Origin: Ignavibacteria bacterium
Lineage (GTDB): Bacteria > Bacteroidota > Ignavibacteria > Kapaibacteriales > UBA4661
Reading direction: 5' to 3'
Assembly (NCBI GenBank): GCA_014654705.1
Contig: JACVZY010000051.1
Span: 248,001 to 312,000, forward strand
Length of the DNA: 64,000 nt
Shown: in pieces, positions 5,827-55,893 of the stretch
Layout of the letters: every line of letters starts with the position of its first letter
How positions within the stretch are numbered: the stretch's first letter is position 1
Position numbers and translations under genes: made by a program
The notes under the pieces: model-generated
The model's database searches: none
Seen by the model: only the letters and a program-made list of their open reading frames with translations
What the model was told of the DNA's origin: nothing

Positions 5827-6645
5827 ATGAGTTCTTTTGGAAATTCTCGCAACAGCAACCAACAATTCCGCCAAACACCACGCTATAATGTTCCCTACAA
5901 GACCAGTAATCCTGCGCTTTCCGAGCGACGCTTCGCAGAACGCACATGGGACGGTGTGGGTGAGCGAATGACGCTGGAAGGCACAGCGAACAAAGTTGGT
6001 ATTTTGCTTCTTTTGTGCTTGGTCTCTGCGCTTTTTACGTGGAGCCAAGTCGGTATCACCAGTGGTGGTGAGGTCTATGGTGTGGGCGGCTGGCTGGTGG
6101 GTGGTGCGATTGGTGGCTTCATTGTTGCTCTCGTTACAACCTTCAAGCCCGAATGGTCAGGCGTAACAGCACCTTTGTATGCGCTGTTGGAGGGTTTGTT
6201 TATCGGCGGCTTCTCGGCGCTTTTGGAAATGCGCTATCCCGGTATTGCCGTTCAAGCAGCAGGCTTAACGTTTGGTGTTTTTATTTCCCTTTTGCTGGCA
6301 TACAAGACCCGCCTTATTCGCGTTACCGAGACCTTTCGTTCCGGTTTAATTGTTGCTATGATGGGTTTGGGCTTAGTGTATTTGGTCGGCTTTTTGCTCC
6401 GGATGTTTAGCGGCTATCAACTACCGTTCTTCCAAGGTGGTATTATCGGTATTGGTTTCAGCCTTGTGGTGGTAGCCATCGCAGCCGCAAATTTGCTCAT
6501 GGATTTTGATTTCATCGAAGCCGCAGCTGAGGAAGGCGCTCCCAAATACATGGAATGGTACGGCGCATTTGGGCTGATGGTAACGTTGGTCTGGCTTTAT
6601 ATTGAGATTTTGCGTCTCTTGGCAAAGCTCAGAAGCGACGATTAA
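5827..6645 (+). CDS. Bax inhibitor-1 / YccA family membrane protein
   Basis: A 272-residue integral membrane protein. About 50 polar residues at the N-terminus (LSERRFAERTWDGVGERMTLEG, a segment typical of the bacterial family) precede seven predicted hydrophobic segments, among them ILLLLCLVSALFTW, GGAIGGFIVALVTTF and LYALLEGLFIGGFSALLEM, and an acidic helix near the end (DFDFIEAAAEEGAPKYMEWY) that matches the family signature. Family members are implicated in ion or calcium leak and stress tolerance; the substrate here is unknown. AGGAG at 5812-5816, 10 bp upstream, supports the ATG at 5827. It stands alone, followed by its own terminator. Confidence 0.9.
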   Translation: MSSFGNSRNSNQQFRQTPRYNVPYKTSNPALSERRFAERTWDGVGERMTLEGTANKVGILLLLCLVSALFTWSQVGITSGGEVYGVGGWLVGGAIGGFIVALVTTFKPEWSGVTAPLYALLEGLFIGGFSALLEMRYPGIAVQAAGLTFGVFISLLLAYKTRLIRVTETFRSGLIVAMMGLGLVYLVGFLLRMFSGYQLPFFQGGIIGIGFSLVVVAIAAANLLMDFDFIEAAAEEGAPKYMEWYGAFGLMVTLVWLYIEILRLLAKLRSDD

Positions 6646-46165: not shown

Positions 46166-46194
46166 TTGACTTTAGCAAAATTTCTCCGCATCTT
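46166..46194 (+). promoter_or_regulatory. Candidate promoter of the amidohydrolase gene, similar to the ilv leader promoter
   Basis: TTGACT (46166-46171), a 17-bp spacer and CATCTT (46189-46194), 27 bp before the ATG. The whole 29-bp stretch, including the spacer, is nearly identical to that at 49095-49123 (26 of 29 bases). Confidence 0.5.
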
Positions 46195-46221: not shown

Positions 46222-47865
46222 ATGAACAAAACTTCTACAACTCTCGCCCTCATTGTGATTGCCCTGCACTGCGCTTGTACGCTTGCCGCTCAATCAAATT
46301 CACCAACCGCGCCCGCACCAACCGCGCCCACACCAACAGTTCCAAAATCGCCACCCCGCGCCGAAGGCGAAGGACCATTTAAGCGACTCATTATTCGTGG
46401 GGTAACGCTCATCAACGGCACGGGCGCACCGCCGCTTGGTCCGGTGGATATTGTCGTAGAAGGAAATCGTATCAAATCGGTGAAAACGGTCGGTTTTCCG
46501 GGACTGCCCATCAAGCCCGAAAGCCGCCCCAAAGCGAATGAGGGCGATAAAGAACTCAATGCCGAAGGAATGTATTTGTTGCCCGGATTTGTGGACACGC
46601 ACGGGCATTGTGGCGGTCTGGCGCAAGGAACAAGCGCGGAGTATGTCTTTAAGCTCTGGCTGGCGCACGGCATCACGACCGTCCGCGACCCATCGGCGGG
46701 CAATGGCTTAGAATGGACGCTTGAACACCGCGACAAAAGCGCGAAAAATGAGATTACCGCACCACGCATCAAGGCATATCCGTACTTTGGGCAGAATTCG
46801 GACGACCCGATTGCTACGCCAGAGCAGGCAAGAGCATGGGTGCGAGGCGTTGCCAAGAAAGGCGCGGATGGAATTAAGTTTTTTGGCGCAACGCCTGATG
46901 TCTTCAAGGCAGCATTAGAAGAAGCAAAAGTACAAAACCTCCGAACCGCCTGCCACCACGCCCAACTCGACGTAGCCCGCGCTAATGCGCTTCAAACCGC
47001 ACGGTGGGGACTCACCTCAATGGAGCATTGGTACGGGCTGCCGGAAGCACTCTTTGAAGACAGAACGGTACAGGATTATCCGCTTGATTACAACTACCAA
47101 AATGAACAGCACCGCTTTTCGGGTGCGGGCAAGCTCTGGAAACAAGCCGCAAAGCCATATTCCGAAAAATGGAACACCGTGATGAATGAGATGTTGAAAC
47201 TTGATTTTACGCTCGACCCCACGTTCAATATCTACGCCGCAAGTCGTGATTTGATGGCGGCTGCCGGGTACGAATGGCACGATGAGTACACGCTGCCCTC
47301 GCTCTGGGAATTTTTTCAACCCAATCGCGCTGCGCATGGCTCATACTGGTTTAATTGGGGAACCGAAGAAGAAGTGGCGTGGAAGGAGAATTATCGGCTG
47401 TGGATGACGTTTGTGAATGAGTACAAAAATCGCGGCGGGCGCGTAACGGTCGGCACGGATGCGGGTTTTATTTTCCAACTCTACGGCTTTTCCTATCCGC
47501 GCGAACTGGAAATGCTGCGCGAGGCGGGCTTCCATCCGTTGGAAGTAATTCGCTCGGCAACCTTGCACGGCGCACAGCTCTTGGGCATGGACAAAGACAT
47601 TGGTTCGGTCGAGGTCGGCAAACTGGCAGATTTCGTGATTGTGGAAGAAAACCCGCTTGCCAATCTCAAAGTGCTGTACGGTACTGGTGCGCTCAAAGTG
47701 AATGACGACAACAAAGCGGTGCGCGTGGGCGGCGTGAAATATACCGTAAAGGACGGCATTATCTACGACGCAAAAAAACTCTTGGAAGATGTGCGCCAAA
47801 TAGTCGCCAAAGCAAAGCAGGCGCGAGGTGGGTATCAGATGGTGATGCCGGGGGCGAAGAAGTAG
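46222..47865 (+). CDS. Secreted amidohydrolase-family protein
   Basis: A 547-residue exported hydrolase. A signal peptide (LALIVIALHCACTLAAQ) and a Pro/Ala/Thr-rich linker (SPTAPAPTAPTPTVPKSPPR) precede the amidohydrolase domain. Metal motifs are visible: LLPGFVDTHGHCGG (HxH), TACHHAQLDVA (His), MEHWYGLPE and VGTDAGFIFQLYGFSYPRELEML (Asp); SATLHGAQLLGMDKDIGSVEVGKLADFVI is the standard C-terminal signature. The family acts on cyclic amides, N-acyl amino acids or dipeptides; the substrate is not predictable. It is not followed by related genes. Confidence 0.9.
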   Translation: MNKTSTTLALIVIALHCACTLAAQSNSPTAPAPTAPTPTVPKSPPRAEGEGPFKRLIIRGVTLINGTGAPPLGPVDIVVEGNRIKSVKTVGFPGLPIKPESRPKANEGDKELNAEGMYLLPGFVDTHGHCGGLAQGTSAEYVFKLWLAHGITTVRDPSAGNGLEWTLEHRDKSAKNEITAPRIKAYPYFGQNSDDPIATPEQARAWVRGVAKKGADGIKFFGATPDVFKAALEEAKVQNLRTACHHAQLDVARANALQTARWGLTSMEHWYGLPEALFEDRTVQDYPLDYNYQNEQHRFSGAGKLWKQAAKPYSEKWNTVMNEMLKLDFTLDPTFNIYAASRDLMAAAGYEWHDEYTLPSLWEFFQPNRAAHGSYWFNWGTEEEVAWKENYRLWMTFVNEYKNRGGRVTVGTDAGFIFQLYGFSYPRELEMLREAGFHPLEVIRSATLHGAQLLGMDKDIGSVEVGKLADFVIVEENPLANLKVLYGTGALKVNDDNKAVRVGGVKYTVKDGIIYDAKKLLEDVRQIVAKAKQARGGYQMVMPGAKK

Positions 47866-48937: not shown

Positions 48938-49054
48938 ATGATTTTCGCAGACCCAATCTACGACACAATTTTTAGGCGAATGATGGAAAACGAATGTGTT
49001 ACGAAAATTTTCATTGGAACGCTTTTGGAGCAACACATCGAAACGGTCAAATAA
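48938..49054 (+). pseudogene. 5' fragment of an Rpn/PD-(D/E)XK nuclease-family transposase gene
   Basis: MIFADPIYDTIFRRMMENECVTKIFIGTLLEQHIE is the usual opening of the family of Bacteroidota proteins called PD-(D/E)XK nuclease family transposase (normal start ANPxYDxVFKxLMEDxxIAKxxIxxLL). The frame ends after 38 codons (TAA at 49052), where the full protein would have about 300. A 40-codon ORF (48819-48941) ends in an ATGA overlap with it. Confidence 0.55.
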
Positions 49055-49094: not shown

Positions 49095-49123
49095 TTGACT
49101 TTGGCAAAAATTCTCCGTATCTT
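49095..49123 (+). promoter_or_regulatory. Candidate promoter of the ilv leader transcript
   Basis: TTGACT (49095-49100), 17 bp, TATCTT (49118-49123). The start would be near 49130, about 60 nt before the leader peptide. It is the near-copy of 46166-46194. Confidence 0.6.
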
Positions 49124-49190
49124 ACTGGGGCGTTGATAAACATTGATATATCAACTATCCCCAAAACATTACTTCAGCAATCGCACATTC

Positions 49191-49259
49191 ATGCTACTCT
49201 CAGCCTCATATATTATTATTGTACTATTTGTGGTCATCGTGGAACAACAACTCCGGTGA
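49191..49259 (+). CDS. Branched-chain amino acid leader peptide (attenuator)
   Basis: A 22-codon ORF too short for standard gene finding. It reads MLLSASYIIIVLFVVIVEQQ plus two residues (Leu, Arg), then TGA. Eleven of its 22 residues are Leu, Ile or Val (4 Leu counting the penultimate one, 4 Ile, 4 Val, of which the run from residue 8 to 17 holds most). Such runs of regulatory codons mark leader peptides of ilv operons. The stop codon (49257-49259) overlaps the 5' arm of a possible antiterminator. Translation needs no strong ribosome binding site here. The structural genes ilvD, ilvB, ilvN and ilvC follow from 50065. Confidence 0.75.
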   Translation: MLLSASYIIIVLFVVIVEQQLR

Positions 49260-49322
49260 GAGAAGAGCAGTACCTAAATTTTACAAAAGCCCTTTCTTAC
49301 CGACCGTAAGGAAGGGCTTTTT
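49255..49322 (+). promoter_or_regulatory. ilv attenuator: antiterminator arm and terminator
   Basis: The terminator is AAAAGCCCTTTCTTAC (49285-49300), loop CGACC, GTAAGGAAGGGCTTTT (49306-49321), a 16-bp stem with one G-T pair, ending in five T. The segment GGTGAGAGAAG (49255-49265), which starts at the leader stop codon, can pair with CTTTCTTACC (49292-49301), the same bases that form the 5' arm of the terminator. Stalling in the Ile/Val/Leu run would leave this segment free and let the antiterminator form; a ribosome at the stop codon would cover it and let the terminator form. Confidence 0.75.
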
Positions 49323-49401: not shown

Positions 49402-49611
49402 ATGCAAACACTGACCTTACATCTTAGTGATACGCTTGTTAAACGTTTGGCGAGACAAGCCGAACTTGAGCATACCTCAATAGAAGAAATTGCTCTGCGT
49501 AGTCTTGAAGCACTATCGGAAGTGAATTCAGCCAAGCAAGAACGTAGTGTTGAAGAGGGCATTGAATATGTTATTGCTAAGAACCGTGAACTTCTTCAAC
49601 GATTAGCGTGA
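49402..49611 (+). CDS. Antitoxin-like small protein of a Doc-type toxin-antitoxin pair
   Basis: A 69-residue protein with an N-terminal ribbon-helix-helix-like segment (MQTLTLHLSDTLVKRLARQAELEHTSIEEIALRSLEAL) and a C-terminal helix (EEGIEYVIAKNRELLQRLA) that is the part expected to bind and block the toxin. Its pairing with the Doc gene 10 bp downstream is the strongest argument. Such antitoxins also repress their own promoter. The gene lies between the ilv attenuator and ilvD. I cannot assign it to Phd itself; the N-terminal fold looks more like RHH than like Phd. Confidence 0.75.
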   Translation: MQTLTLHLSDTLVKRLARQAELEHTSIEEIALRSLEALSEVNSAKQERSVEEGIEYVIAKNRELLQRLA

Positions 49612-49621
49612 GCATTAGACA

Positions 49622-50008
49622 ATGCGCTTTTTAGCAATATCCGATGTTATGCTCCTTCACAAACGCCTTATTGAAGAAACAGGTGGTGGTGCGGGATTGC
49701 GCGATATTGCAGGACTGGAATCTGCACTCGCGCAGCCACAAATGACCTTCGGCGGTGAGGAATTGTATCCCGACATTACCGAAAAAGCAAGTGCACTCAT
49801 GTTTTCGCTTGTCCTCAATCATCCGTTTGTTGATGGAAACAAACGCGTCGGTTATGCGGCTGCGGAACTTTTTCTGTGGCTTAATGGCTACGAACTTCAA
49901 GTGGATATTGATACGGCAGAAGGAGTCGTTCTCAGTCTTGCCGCAGGTAATTTTGAACGTGAATCACTCACAGCATGGATTCAACAACATTGCATCCGAT
50001 TACAATAA
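49622..50008 (+). CDS. doc: Doc/Fic-family toxin
   Basis: A 128-residue Doc-type Fic protein. The Fic motif is HPFVDGNKRVGYAAAELFL, which has the catalytic His, the phosphate-binding Asn and the Lys-Arg pair; Doc proteins phosphorylate EF-Tu and halt translation. The G in GNKR (HPFxDGNKR) is the AMP-transfer-type spacing, while Doc usually has HxFx(D/N)ANKR, so the reaction (phosphorylation or AMP transfer) should not be assumed. Length and N-terminal ISDVMLLHKRLIEETGG fit the Doc family. The gene starts 10 bp after the antitoxin and ends 56 bp before ilvD. Confidence 0.88.
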   Translation: MRFLAISDVMLLHKRLIEETGGGAGLRDIAGLESALAQPQMTFGGEELYPDITEKASALMFSLVLNHPFVDGNKRVGYAAAELFLWLNGYELQVDIDTAEGVVLSLAAGNFERESLTAWIQQHCIRLQ

Positions 50009-50064: not shown

Positions 50065-51750
50065 ATGCTCAATAAATACAGCCGCGTCCTCACGCAAGAC
50101 GACACCCAACCCGCCGCACAAGCCATGCTCTACGCTATCGGCTTTTCTGACAATGATATGCAAAAAGCACAAGTCGGTATTGTTTCTACCGGATTCGAGG
50201 GAAATTCCTGCAATATGCACCTGAACGATCTCGCTGCGATTGTTAAAAAAGGCTTTGCTGCGCCGGAACTGAGCAAAGAAATATTGGGTCTCATTTTCCA
50301 TACAATCGGCGTGTCTGACGGGATGTCTATGGGGACACAGGGAATGCGGTATTCGCTGCCTTCGCGGGATGTGATTGCGGACAGTATTGAGACTGTTACC
50401 AACGCGCAGGCGTATGACGGCTTGGTAACGATTGTGGGTTGTGACAAAAATATGCCCGGTGCTATGATGGCAATGGGACGACTGAATCGTCCGTCCATCA
50501 TGGTCTATGGTGGCACGATTGCTTCAGGGAATTACAAAGGCAAAAAGCTGAATATCGTATCGGCGTTCGAGGCGCTTGGTGAGCGAGTTGCGGGGACAAT
50601 TTCCGATGAAGATTTTAAGGGCGTTATCCGCAATGCCTGTCCCGGAGCAGGCGCGTGTGGCGGGATGTACACCGCAAACACGATGTCGTCTGCCATTGAA
50701 GCGCTTGGAATGAGCCTTCCGCGTTCATCCTCAAACCCCGCCGTTAGCCCCGAAAAGCGTGATGAATGCTTGGAAGTCGCTGCCGCAATGCACAATCTCC
50801 TCAAGCTCGACCTCAAGCCCCGCGATATTGTTACCAAAAAATCCCTCGAAAATGCACTTGCAATGGTGATGGTGATGGGCGGCTCGACCAATGCCGTACT
50901 GCACTTTTTGGCGATTGCCCGTGCGTTTGAGATTGATTGGACGCTTTCGGACGTGCAGCGCATCAGCGACAAAACACCGTACTTAGCAGATTTGAAGCCA
51001 AGCGGAAAGTATTTGATGGAGGACATTCACACCATCGGCGGTACGCCTACGGTAATGAAATTTATGCTGGAAAATGGCTTTCTGCATGGTGATTGTATGA
51101 CTGTGACGGGAAAGACGATTGCTGAGAACCTTGCCACAGTGCCGCTTCTGGACGAGAAGCAAGATGTAGTGCGTTCTCTCGGAAATGCAATTAAACAAAC
51201 AGGGCACTTGCAAGTTCTCTATGGAAATCTCGCCTCAGAGGGAGCCGTGGCAAAAATCACAGGCAAAGAAGGTGAAAAATTTGTCGGCAAAGCACGGGTT
51301 TTCGAGAGTGAAGATGATGCAAACGCGGGTATTATGGCAGGCAAAGTGCAGAAAGGCGAAGTCATTGTTATTCGCTTTATCGGTCCCGCGGGTGCGCCCG
51401 GAATGCCGGAGATGCTTAAGCCTACGTCGCTTGTGATTGGTGCGGGCTTGGGCAATGACGTTGCGCTTATCACCGATGGTCGCTTTTCGGGCGGGACGCA
51501 CGGGTTTGTGGTGGGGCATATCACACCCGAAGCGCAGCGCGGCGGTTTGATTGGATTGCTGCAAGATGGCGATGAAATCACGATTGATGCCGTCAATAAC
51601 CGTTTAGAGGTAGCACTTTCCGATGCTGAAATCGCCAAACGCCGTGCAGCACAGACGCTTCCACCGCTCAAAGCCACCAGTGGATATTTGTACAAATATG
51701 CAAAAACGGTGTCGTCGGCGAGCGAGGGCTGTGTGACGGATACGTTTTGA
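50065..51750 (+). CDS. ilvD: Dihydroxy-acid dehydratase
   Basis: It dehydrates the dihydroxy acids of valine, leucine and isoleucine synthesis to their keto acids using an iron-sulfur cluster. Its 561 residues show the cluster cysteines in [21 protein letters not shown] and [16 protein letters not shown], together with the conserved [18 protein letters not shown] and [24 protein letters not shown]. This pattern is the class with three Cys. It starts 56 bp after the toxin gene, with no promoter seen between, so it should be read from the ilv leader promoter or one in the toxin-antitoxin cassette. Confidence 0.96.
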
Positions 51751-51779: not shown

Positions 51780-52229
51780 ATGACACCGCAAGATATACAT
51801 AATACCTACACTATCTCCACCGACCCACACAAAATGGACGTGGAGGCAATCTATAACTACCTCGCGCGCTCCTATTGGGCGGAAGGACGCACGATGGCTA
51901 CCGTTGAGAAATCTCTACGCAATTCGTTGAACTTTGGCGTGTTCGCGGGAACAGGCGCACAAGTAGGTTTTGCGCGAGTCATTACGGATTATGCCACATT
52001 TGCCTATCTTGCCGATGTCTATATTTTGGAAGAACATCGCGGCAAAGGACTGAGCAAATGGCTTATGAAGACAATTATGGCACATCCCGATTTGCAAGGC
52101 TTGCGGCGCTGGTCGCTCGCAACACGCGATGCACATGGCTTATATGCACAATTTGGTTTTACACCGCTTCCGAAGCCGGAGATTTGGATGCAGATTTTTG
52201 ATGCGGAAGCAAATCCTCCGATAGAATAA
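51780..52229 (+). CDS. GNAT-family acetyltransferase inside the ilv operon
   Basis: A 149-residue single-domain GNAT protein. The acetyl-CoA site is VYILEEHRGKGLSKWLMKTIM (R/Q-x-x-G-x-G/A); the second half, LATRDAHGLYAQFGFTPLP, is also typical. It lies 30 bp after ilvD and 109 bp before ilvB. Similar GNAT genes are not part of the pathway; substrate unknown. Confidence 0.85.
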   Translation: MTPQDIHNTYTISTDPHKMDVEAIYNYLARSYWAEGRTMATVEKSLRNSLNFGVFAGTGAQVGFARVITDYATFAYLADVYILEEHRGKGLSKWLMKTIMAHPDLQGLRRWSLATRDAHGLYAQFGFTPLPKPEIWMQIFDAEANPPIE

Positions 52230-52338: not shown

Positions 52339-54072
52339 ATGTCCACCCAAGCCCCGCACACGGCGTACAAAATGAAAACGCCACCCCGCACTATGACCGG
52401 CGCAGAAGCTGTCGTCGCTTCGCTTCTCGAAGAAGGCGTTGACACAATTTTTGGCTATCCGGGCGGTGCGATTATGCCCGTCTATGATGCTTTCTACGAT
52501 TACCAAGACCGTCTTCGCCATATTCTTGTGCGCCATGAGCAAGGTGCTGTCCATGCGGCACAAGGTTACGCAAGGGTTTCCAATCGTGTCGGGGTTTGTA
52601 TTGCCACCTCGGGACCCGGTGCGACCAATCTTATCACAGGCATTGCCGATGCGCAGATAGATTCTACGCCGCTTGTGTGCATCACGGGGCAAGTCGGTTC
52701 GCACCTGCTTGGCACGGATGCCTTCCAAGAAACGGACGTTATCGGCATTTCGATGCCCGTAACAAAGTGGAATTACCAAATCACCAAAGCCGAAGAAATC
52801 CCAGCGGCATTTGCTAAAGCCTTCTACATTGCACGGAGCGGTCGCCCGGGACCGGTTTTGCTGGATATCACCAAAGATGCGCAGTTCAAGACGCTGGACT
52901 TTTCGTACGAGCCTTGTATTGGTATACGCAGCTATGCGCCGTACCCGAAATCACGCCCCGACGATGTCATTGCCGCCGCCGCACTCATCAATAGCGCGAA
53001 GAAGCCGTATATCCTCGCCGGGCACGGTATTTTGCTTTCACAAGCGCAGGAGGAATTTGCCGCTTTTGTGGAAAAAACGGGTATTCCGGTTGCTTCTACC
53101 TTGCTGGGGCTCTCAGCACTTCCTGGCGACCATCCGCTCTATGTGGGCTATTTGGGAATGCACGGCAACTATGCGCCCAACGTAAAAACCAACGAAGCCG
53201 ATGTTATCATCGCTGTCGGTATGCGCTTCGATGACCGCGTGACGGGTGATTTGGCGCGCTATGCCAAGCAAGCCCGCATCATTCACATCGAAATTGACCC
53301 GTCTGAAATCAATAAAAACGTTAAAGCGGAAGTCGCTATCAATGCCGATGCCAAAGAAGCACTGCTGGCACTCATGCCGCACGTGCAAAAACGCTCACAT
53401 GACGCATGGATAAGCGAGTTCAAAGCACTGGACAAAATTGAACATGAGAAAGTCATTGTCAAAGATTTTACTCTGCCAGAAAACAGTATTAAAATGGCAA
53501 ATGTTGTAGAGCGTATTTCTCGTAAAACTAAAGGGGAGGCAATTATCGTTACCGACGTCGGGCAGCATCAGATGGTTACCTCGCGGTATTATGCCTATCG
53601 CGGACAGGACAACAACGTTACCTCCGGCGGCTTAGGAACGATGGGCTTTGCGCTTCCGGCAGCGATTGGGGCAAAGTTTGCACGTCCGAATGAAGAGGTC
53701 ATTGCTATCATCGGCGATGGTGGCTTTCAGATGACCTTACAAGAACTCGGCACGATTTTTCAGGAGAATACAGGTGTGAAAATTGTTCTGCTGAACAATA
53801 ATTTCCTCGGAATGGTGCGTCAATGGCAGCAGTTATTCTTTGACCGTCGTTATTCGTCGGTGGAAATGAAAAATCCGAATTTTATCAAAATTACCGAAGG
53901 TTTTGGCTTGAAAGCACGCAAAATCGAGCACCCAAGCGAACTTGACGGCGCGATTGATGAAATGCTGGCACACGACGGTCCGTACTTCTTGGAAGTGGTT
54001 GTCGAGCGCGAAGAAAACGTTTTCCCGATGGTTCCTACGGGGGCATCGGTGGCAGAAATTCGTTTGGAGTGA
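52339..54072 (+). CDS. ilvB: Acetolactate synthase large (catalytic) subunit
   Basis: Thiamine-diphosphate enzyme that joins two pyruvates, or pyruvate and 2-oxobutyrate, the first common step to Val, Leu and Ile. The 577-residue protein has the catalytic Glu region (YPGGAIMPVYDAF, VRHEQGAVHAAQGYAR), the FAD domain (EIDPSEINKNV) and the ThDP motif GDGGFQMTLQELGTIFQENTGVKIVLLNNN, then LGMVRQWQQLFFDRRYSS. All key residues are in place. It forms a holoenzyme with the product of the next gene. Confidence 0.97.
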   Translation: MSTQAPHTAYKMKTPPRTMTGAEAVVASLLEEGVDTIFGYPGGAIMPVYDAFYDYQDRLRHILVRHEQGAVHAAQGYARVSNRVGVCIATSGPGATNLITGIADAQIDSTPLVCITGQVGSHLLGTDAFQETDVIGISMPVTKWNYQITKAEEIPAAFAKAFYIARSGRPGPVLLDITKDAQFKTLDFSYEPCIGIRSYAPYPKSRPDDVIAAAALINSAKKPYILAGHGILLSQAQEEFAAFVEKTGIPVASTLLGLSALPGDHPLYVGYLGMHGNYAPNVKTNEADVIIAVGMRFDDRVTGDLARYAKQARIIHIEIDPSEINKNVKAEVAINADAKEALLALMPHVQKRSHDAWISEFKALDKIEHEKVIVKDFTLPENSIKMANVVERISRKTKGEAIIVTDVGQHQMVTSRYYAYRGQDNNVTSGGLGTMGFALPAAIGAKFARPNEEVIAIIGDGGFQMTLQELGTIFQENTGVKIVLLNNNFLGMVRQWQQLFFDRRYSSVEMKNPNFIKITEGFGLKARKIEHPSELDGAIDEMLAHDGPYFLEVVVEREENVFPMVPTGASVAEIRLE

Positions 54073-54142: not shown

Positions 54143-54709
54143 ATGCAAAAAAAACTTTTCACTATCATCGCGTTCACCGAAAACCGCATCGGGCTTCTGA
54201 ATCGCATCACGATTATCTTCACGCGGCGGCATATCAATATCGAATCGCTCACCACCAGTGAATGTGAAGTCGAAGGTGTTCACCGCTTTACGATTACCAC
54301 GCGCACGACCAAAGAGCGTGCCGTAAAAGTGGTACAGCAAATTGATAAACTCGTGGAAGTTATCAAAGCCTCGCTGCACGAGGAAGAAGAAACCGTGTAT
54401 CAGGAACTTGCTCTTTACAAAGTGGATGCACGGCAAATTGCTGAAAATGGCTTGTTTACGGCGTTCCTGAACACGATAAAAAAATATGATGCGCATATTC
54501 AAACGGCAACCGATGATTACATTATCATTGAAAAAGTCGGCAGGCGCGTTGAAGTCTTTATGCTACTTGATGCACTGAAGGAATATCACGTGCTGGAATT
54601 TGCCAAGTCCGGCAGAGTAGCCATGACACGCTCGGCAAACGACCTCGATCAATACCTACGCGATGTGGAAGCTCGCGTGGCAGAGGAAGCGCATGAAGTT
54701 GGCGTATAG
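54143..54709 (+). CDS. ilvN: Acetolactate synthase small (regulatory) subunit
   Basis: The valine-binding regulatory subunit of acetolactate synthase. The 188-residue protein opens with an ACT domain (FTIIAFTENRIGLLNRITIIFTRRHINIESLTTSE) and continues with the ALS_ss_C part (TEYVTVYQEL-like segment ETVYQELALYKVDARQ, and DDYIIIEKVGRRVEVFMLLDALKEYHVLEFAKSGRVAMTRS). It begins 70 bp after ilvB. Feedback inhibition by valine is therefore expected in addition to attenuation. Confidence 0.95.
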   Translation: MQKKLFTIIAFTENRIGLLNRITIIFTRRHINIESLTTSECEVEGVHRFTITTRTTKERAVKVVQQIDKLVEVIKASLHEEEETVYQELALYKVDARQIAENGLFTAFLNTIKKYDAHIQTATDDYIIIEKVGRRVEVFMLLDALKEYHVLEFAKSGRVAMTRSANDLDQYLRDVEARVAEEAHEVGV

Positions 54710-54743: not shown

Positions 54744-54843
54744 GGACGAAATTTCGTATCATAACGAACTTTATTTGTTGATGATACTGACAGACATTAC
54801 TTATAATTCTTTACTTTTCAAAAATTTCAGAGAGATTGTATTT

Positions 54844-55893
54844 ATGGCAAAACTTAATTTCGGTGGCGTGGAAGAAAATGTCGTTACACGCGAGGAATTT
54901 CCGCTTGCAAAAGCGCAAGAAATCTTGAAAGATGAAGTCGTCGCTGTCATTGGCTACGGCGTACAAGGTCCCGGGCAGGCGCTCAATCAAAAAGATAATG
55001 GCATTAATGTCATCGTCGGGCAGCGCCAAAATTCAAAATCGTGGGATAAAGCTGTTGCAGACGGCTTTGTGCCTGGCAAAACACTTTTCTCACCGGAAGA
55101 AGCGGCAGAGAAAGGCACGATTATATGCTATCTGCTCTCCGATGCGGCGCAGATTGCTATGTGGCCCACCATTAAAAAACATCTTACCAAGGGGAAGGCG
55201 CTCTATTTCTCGCACGGCTTCGGTATTACCTATAAAGAGCAGACCGGTATCATTCCGCCGGACGATGTGGACGTAATCTTGGTTGCGCCCAAAGGCTCCG
55301 GTACGTCGCTTCGTCGCTTGTTTGTGGCGGGTCGTGGTTTGAATTCAAGCTATGCAATTTTCCAAGATGCCACCGGACGCGCTAAAGATCGCACCATTGC
55401 GCTCGGTATTGCCGTGGGGTCGGGTTACTTGTTTGAAACTGATTTCAAAAAAGAAGTCTATTCCGATCTTACAGGCGAGCGCGGTACGCTTATGGGCGCT
55501 ATACAGGGCATCTTCGAGGCGCAATACAATGTGCTTCGTAAACGCGGTCATACACCGTCGGAAGCATTCAACGAAACCGTCGAAGAACTGACGCAAAGCC
55601 TCATGCCACTTGTGGCAGAAAACGGTATGGACTGGATGTACGCAAACTGCTCCACTACCGCACAGCGTGGCGCTTTGGATTGGAAAAATAAATTCCGCGA
55701 TGCCGTTGCGCCAGTGATGGAAGACCTCTACGAGAGCGTTGCGACGGGCAAAGAAGCAGCTCGTTCCATTGCGACGAATAGTCAGCCCGATTACCGTGAA
55801 AAATTGGACGCGGAGCTTGCGGAATTGCGTGATTCGGAGATGTGGCAAGCGGGGAAAACTGTTCGCAGTTTGCGCCCTGAAAACAAGAAGTAA
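54844..55893 (+). CDS. ilvC: Ketol-acid reductoisomerase
   Basis: It isomerises and reduces acetolactate or acetohydroxybutyrate. The 349-residue protein has the NAD(P)-binding motif (VAVIGYGVQGPGQALNQKDNG; the cofactor loop is VGQRQNSKSWDKA), the catalytic part (FSHGFGITYKEQ, VDVILVAPKGSGTSLRRLF) and the metal site (SDLTGERGTLMGAIQGIFEAQYNVL with the conserved Asp and Glu pair, and EELTQSLMPLVAENGMDWMYANCSTTAQRGALDW). The ATG at 54844 starts the conserved region. A terminator closes the operon. Confidence 0.96.
   Translation: MAKLNFGGVEENVVTREEFPLAKAQEILKDEVVAVIGYGVQGPGQALNQKDNGINVIVGQRQNSKSWDKAVADGFVPGKTLFSPEEAAEKGTIICYLLSDAAQIAMWPTIKKHLTKGKALYFSHGFGITYKEQTGIIPPDDVDVILVAPKGSGTSLRRLFVAGRGLNSSYAIFQDATGRAKDRTIALGIAVGSGYLFETDFKKEVYSDLTGERGTLMGAIQGIFEAQYNVLRKRGHTPSEAFNETVEELTQSLMPLVAENGMDWMYANCSTTAQRGALDWKNKFRDAVAPVMEDLYESVATGKEAARSIATNSQPDYREKLDAELAELRDSEMWQAGKTVRSLRPENKK

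Follow-up and report, generated by a model that had tools for sequence, protein, structure and literature searches.

The classical leader-peptide attenuators of branched-chain amino acid (BCAA) genes are those of the enterobacterial operons ilvGMEDA, with the leader IlvL, and ilvBN, with the leader IvbL. According to a survey of 2010, which added the Firmicutes, leader-peptide systems had until then been known only from Proteobacteria and Actinobacteria (PMC2965389). For ilvBNC of Corynebacterium and Actinobacteria, three papers describe control ahead of ilvB, where a short ORF is located upstream and the attenuator is modelled with three hairpins (PMC1262725, PMC11857589, PMC10272879). For amino acid operons of Flavobacterium psychrophilum, upstream leader-peptide attenuation was inferred from transcriptomes in 2021, the proposal resting on mapped 5' regions and RNA structures (PMC9723704).

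The 64-kb stretch of DNA analyzed here, referred to below as the window, very probably contains a ribosome-mediated attenuator of transcription, of the classical type found at trp and ilv in E. coli, that senses the supply of Val, Ile and Leu. The parts of this element and the genes behind it are listed in Table 1. When the layouts are compared from general knowledge, it resembles the IlvL and IvbL systems in its Ile/Val/Leu-rich leader ORF, in the predicted helices 2:3 and 3:4 together with a candidate helix 1:2, in the terminator located before the ilv genes, and in a design where the position of the ribosome would decide the outcome. It differs from them in the gene order ilvD-GNAT-ilvB-ilvN-ilvC and in a toxin-antitoxin (TA) module inserted between the terminator and the first ilv gene. 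The corynebacterial and actinobacterial ilvBNC attenuator, as described in the papers cited above, shares with it the short ORF and the three-hairpin model and differs in phylum and operon order. The proposal for F. psychrophilum likewise concerns Bacteroidota, but the main text of that paper names no ilv leader.

Table 1. Features of the attenuator and of the downstream genes (positions in the window)
Feature	Position	Strand	Evidence
Promoter-like pair TTGACT (49095-49100) / TATCTT (49118-49123), 17-nt spacer	49095-49123	+	Consensus scan
Leader peptide ORF, ATG 49191, TGA 49257-49259; 22 codons and TGA	49191-49259	+	Sequence; frame kept in relatives
Region 1, TCATCG, within Val-Ile-Val codons; partner of region 2 (candidate protector/pause helix 1:2)	49234-49239	+	Complementarity
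Region 2, CGGTGAGAGA, candidate 5' arm of antiterminator; overlaps leader stop codon	49254-49263	+	Alignment of six genomes
Region 3, TTTCTTACCG, candidate 3' arm of antiterminator; overlaps terminator 5' arm, mutually exclusive	49293-49302	+	Complementarity
Predicted intrinsic terminator 3:4, 16 bp: 49285-49300 / loop CGACC (5 nt) / 49306-49321	49285-49322	+	Folding
Small antitoxin-like ORF, first gene past the terminator	49402-49611	+	Weak ParD_like/RHH similarity, below cut-off
Doc/Fic-family death-on-curing toxin gene	49622-50008	+	PF02661, E=5.6e-21; TIGR01550 above cut-off
ilvD, dihydroxy-acid dehydratase	50065-51750	+	TIGR00110 above cut-off
GNAT acetyltransferase gene, inside the operon, between ilvD and ilvB	51780-52229	+	PF13508, PF00583
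ilvB, acetolactate synthase large subunit	52339-54072	+	TIGR00118 above cut-off
ilvN, acetolactate synthase small subunit	54143-54709	+	TIGR00119 above cut-off
ilvC, ketol-acid reductoisomerase	54775-55893	+	TIGR00465 above cut-off

The promoter-like pair, the 22-codon leader rich in Leu, Ile and Val, the candidate antiterminator arm at the leader stop codon and the 16-bp terminator with T5 are all located where an earlier note on this DNA had placed them. The putative leader peptide, MLLSASYIIIVLFVVIVEQQLR, whose translation is predicted, has Ile, Leu or Val in 12 of its 22 codons; GGTGAGAGAAG (49255-49265) overlaps its stop codon, and the U-tract of the terminator in the window consists of only T5 (49318-49322). 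The predicted fold of the leader RNA is 4 SD better than those of dinucleotide shuffles. When all ATG ORFs of 10-40 codons on both strands of the window were scanned and a terminator was sought within 80 nt of each, the ilv leader showed the highest density of Ile, Leu and Val (9 of 10 residues, with a single runner-up at 8) and was the sole ORF above 6 of 10 to be followed by such a terminator. The second-best ORF with a terminator, at 6577-6642 (6 of 10), was rejected as the 3' end of a 275-aa ORF with its own terminator. A short ORF at 48938-49054, MIFADPIYDTIFRRMMENECVTKIFIGTLLEQHIETVK, has a similar stretch upstream in the related genome G001 and appears to be a leftover 5' portion of a longer gene.

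Six genomes of the genus have readable sequence before ilvD (G000, from which the window is taken, G001, G003, G005, G006 and G007), and the element is located upstream of ilvD in all of them; a covariance model added a seventh copy at a contig edge in G002. Applied to 123 genomes of the order, this model detected nothing comparable outside the genus, the copies within it scoring 89-119 bits versus about 31 bits for the best match elsewhere. A divergent ilvD (54% identical) occurs in G009 of the same family, where no leader was detected. A search of 51 genomes belonging to the order's other families gave no ilvD match, and in a single-gene tree the ilvD of the genus groups among Bacteroidota; taken together, these two observations raise the possibility that the ilv operon and its attenuator were acquired as a unit.

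The leader peptides of the relatives (MLLSPAYIIIVLFVVIVEQQLR in G001, MLISRSYILLVIFVVIVIT in G007, MLLSSAYILLVILVVIVVT in G006 and MTLPSAHLLFMLVVVVLIVIL in G003) retain the reading frame and the richness in Ile, Leu and Val, with exchanges among these three residues and in-frame indels. The earlier note had regarded loss of the leader with retention of the hairpin in close relatives as a refutation of attenuation. No such loss is seen in five of the six genomes, but in G005 (L013, G005:C10) the leader ATG reads AGG and nine in-frame bases, or three codons, are missing. In this genome the reading frame is nevertheless preserved, an internal ATG precedes a shortened Ile/Val run, and the promoter, region 2 and the terminator are retained. 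Given the AGG, initiation in G005 must occur at the internal ATG or at an upstream TTG, and its leader could be decaying, shortened or affected by a sequencing error.

The alignment that the earlier note had proposed, in search of covarying stems and a conserved run of Ile/Val/Leu codons, confirmed that this run is kept and that the terminator helix, paired in 92.9% of cells across the relatives, contains two pairs with compensatory double changes, but it revealed no double-sided covariation in helices 2:3 and 1:2. Both of these helices are nearly invariant, so that their support is complementarity and not covariation. Pairing of the antiterminator 2:3 was found in 95.2% of cells, compared with at most 71% when the helix is slid, and the overlap of region 3 with the terminator 5' arm upholds the earlier view that formation of the antiterminator excludes this arm. 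The sequence CGGTGAG of region 2 is invariant in the six genomes, even outside the coding frame (G003, G006 and G007). Helix 1:2 is paired in 100% of cells (at most 67% when slid) and encloses a constant 14-nt loop in the six genomes; TCATCG pairs with CGGTGA in all of them, except that G005 has TTATCG with a G-U pair. In only three of the six genomes does helix 1:2 prevail in the predicted nascent fold, and elsewhere other leader segments are predicted to hold region 2. For G003, the antiterminator is favoured in the minimum-energy fold that is predicted. The three-helix layout, as predicted from these complementarities, is that of a classical attenuator.

The effect of the ribosome position was calculated by masking the RNA to a point 12 nt past the A-site codon's first base; what remained, down to the end of region 3, was then folded. 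In G000, a ribosome stalled at any codon from M1 to V17 leaves 9-10 nucleotides of region 3 paired with region 2, and 9 nucleotides remain paired at Glu18, whereas none are paired from Leu21 through the stop codon. G001 gives the same result, and with the ribosome at the stop codon pairing is likewise abolished in G005. In G003, G006 and G007, a ribosome at the stop codon leaves 4-6 pairs, i.e. a partial occlusion, because the stop codon lies 6 nt ahead of region 2. The trend between stalling and the stop codon is the same in the other five genomes as in G000, and the calculated geometry is that of ribosome-mediated attenuation.

From this arrangement we infer the following course of events. 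RNA polymerase would start near 49130, and a ribosome would follow on the 22-codon leader. With ample charged Val-, Ile- and Leu-tRNA, the ribosome would reach the stop codon and cover region 2, so that the 3:4 hairpin could form and, given sufficient efficiency of termination, transcription would end near 49322. If one of these tRNAs were uncharged, as expected upon starvation, the ribosome would stall on the Ile/Leu/Val run and leave region 2 free; helix 2:3 would then form and block the terminator, and the polymerase would read into the toxin-antitoxin genes, ilvD, the GNAT gene, ilvB, ilvN and ilvC, presumably in a single transcript reaching ilvC. When the leader is not translated, region 2 would be held by upstream leader sequence, region 1 among others, which would make termination the default state.

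All four genes that the earlier note had named behind the element, ilvD, ilvB, ilvN and ilvC, were confirmed by Pfam and NCBIfam models, but the series is not uninterrupted, since the TA module precedes ilvD and the GNAT gene splits ilvD from ilvB. The translation start of ilvC probably lies downstream of the first TTG. Between the terminator and ilvD, both the antitoxin ORF and the toxin gene are found in G000, G001 and G007, the antitoxin ORF only in G006, and neither in G003 and G005, where ilvD directly follows the attenuator. In the ilvD tree, which does not contain G005 (split over contigs), G003 branches outside G006, G000, G001 and G007. This branching fits a scenario in which the TA pair would have been inserted after G003 split off and the toxin subsequently lost in G006.

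A like-placed TTGACTTT promoter-like pair was found in all six genomes of the genus, and the motif can be extended to TTGACTTTG-N13-GTATNTT. The 5.7-Mb genome has two exact copies of the extended form, one preceding the ilv leader and the other leuA (L134, G000:C59:85952-85980). With up to two mismatches it has 45 matches in its own genome, versus 7 for a reversed-pattern control, and thus looks like a general promoter form; from the shared motif, ilv and leu might be specially co-regulated. The upstream regions of leuA from seven genomes of the genus, when read by eye, showed no leader peptide of the ilv kind, and most of them contain a TTGACTTTG promoter-like motif resembling that of the ilv leader. 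Elsewhere in the window, the ilv leader promoter TTGACTTTGGCAAAAATTCTCCGTATCTT (49095-49123) has a near-copy, TTGACTTTAGCAAAATTTCTCCGCATCTT, at 46166-46194, ahead of an ORF at 46222.

The occurrence of similar elements was surveyed at 80 named ilvD loci, nearly all from Bacteroidota, by searching upstream of ilvD for an ATG ORF rich in Ile, Leu and Val with a terminator no more than 60 nt behind it. Such a pair was found at 41 of the 80 loci and at none on the reverse strand, a count that is not an estimate of prevalence, as these loci are the best matches to the ilvD of the window and the related genomes are not independent; it nonetheless speaks against the impression given by the earlier note that attenuators of this kind are exceptional. 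At 20 loci no more than 450 nt separate the hairpin from ilvD, and at 21 it is located farther upstream, mostly with an intervening ORF read as ilvE from its sequence. A first scan with looser settings, limited to the nearest 600 nt, had detected 27 of the 80 loci, and 160 dinucleotide shuffles gave none. An arm at or near the stop codon and complementary to the terminator is present at several loci (e.g. L097, L052, L088 and L105), and others are without a clear region 2. The order of leader ORF, terminator and ilvD or ilvE-ilvD recurs in Bacteroidota and in one Ignavibacteriota genome (e.g. L052, L058, L085, L088, L097 and L105), whereas the leaders themselves differ in sequence from that of the window and are mostly composed of Ile and Val with Ser or Asn. 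An Rfam scan of 13 named ilvD loci detected no known leader family; its only match was a SAM-II riboswitch (RF01726) in Gaetbulibacter (L103, 2333-2392, minus strand), on the strand opposite to ilvD and upstream of the ilv leader.

The hairpin could also be a plain terminator, ending a short constitutive RNA or an upstream transcript, with the TA and ilv genes driven by a promoter downstream of 49322 and the Ile/Leu/Val-rich ORF arising by chance. Toxin-antitoxin modules usually carry their own promoter, and an inverted repeat, GGTGTGCACACACC, is located ahead of the antitoxin ORF; however, a consensus scan for one promoter type found no sigma-70-like promoter on the plus strand between 49123 and 50100. 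Moreover, the promoter, leader frame, region 2 and terminator stay together in six genomes, two of which (G003 and G005) are without the TA module, the leader surpasses every other short ORF of the window in Ile/Leu/Val density, and the same layout recurs at 41 of the 80 best-matching ilvD loci, all of which renders such an explanation improbable.

Translation of the leader might instead control mRNA stability or Rho-dependent polarity rather than intrinsic termination, as could be argued from the poor U-tract of G003 (TTCATCGTTTT). The five remaining genomes, however, have a strong hairpin followed by a U-run, and helix 2:3, which excludes the terminator, is conserved, so that this is even harder to credit. 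Least plausible is an attenuator based on a regulator, a T-box or a riboswitch, in which the ORF would be incidental: a terminator with an alternative helix is common to all such systems, but conservation in the six-genome alignment is concentrated in the leader codons, region 2 and the terminator, and an Rfam scan of the window detected no family at the gathering score and none of note in the leader. Ribosome-mediated attenuation, as proposed in the earlier note, is supported by the parts and their order, by their mutual exclusion, by the footprint geometry and by conservation in six genomes.

Leaders of this type are already known as a kind of switch, and that of the window is another instance, sound but not of a new type. 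It is a leader-peptide attenuator with good support in an experimentally unstudied lineage, and Bacteroidota are thinly covered in the attenuation literature that we reached. The survey points to Ile/Leu/Val leader attenuation as a widespread device ahead of ilvD or ilvE in Bacteroidota. Finally, the locus offers a case of a toxin-antitoxin pair behind an amino acid attenuator. It is conceivable, though not the likelier case, that in this clade a Doc-type TA pair has become lodged behind the BCAA attenuator, ahead of ilvD, in such a way that BCAA starvation, via the stalled leader ribosome, would directly raise transcription of the TA pair together with that of the biosynthetic genes.
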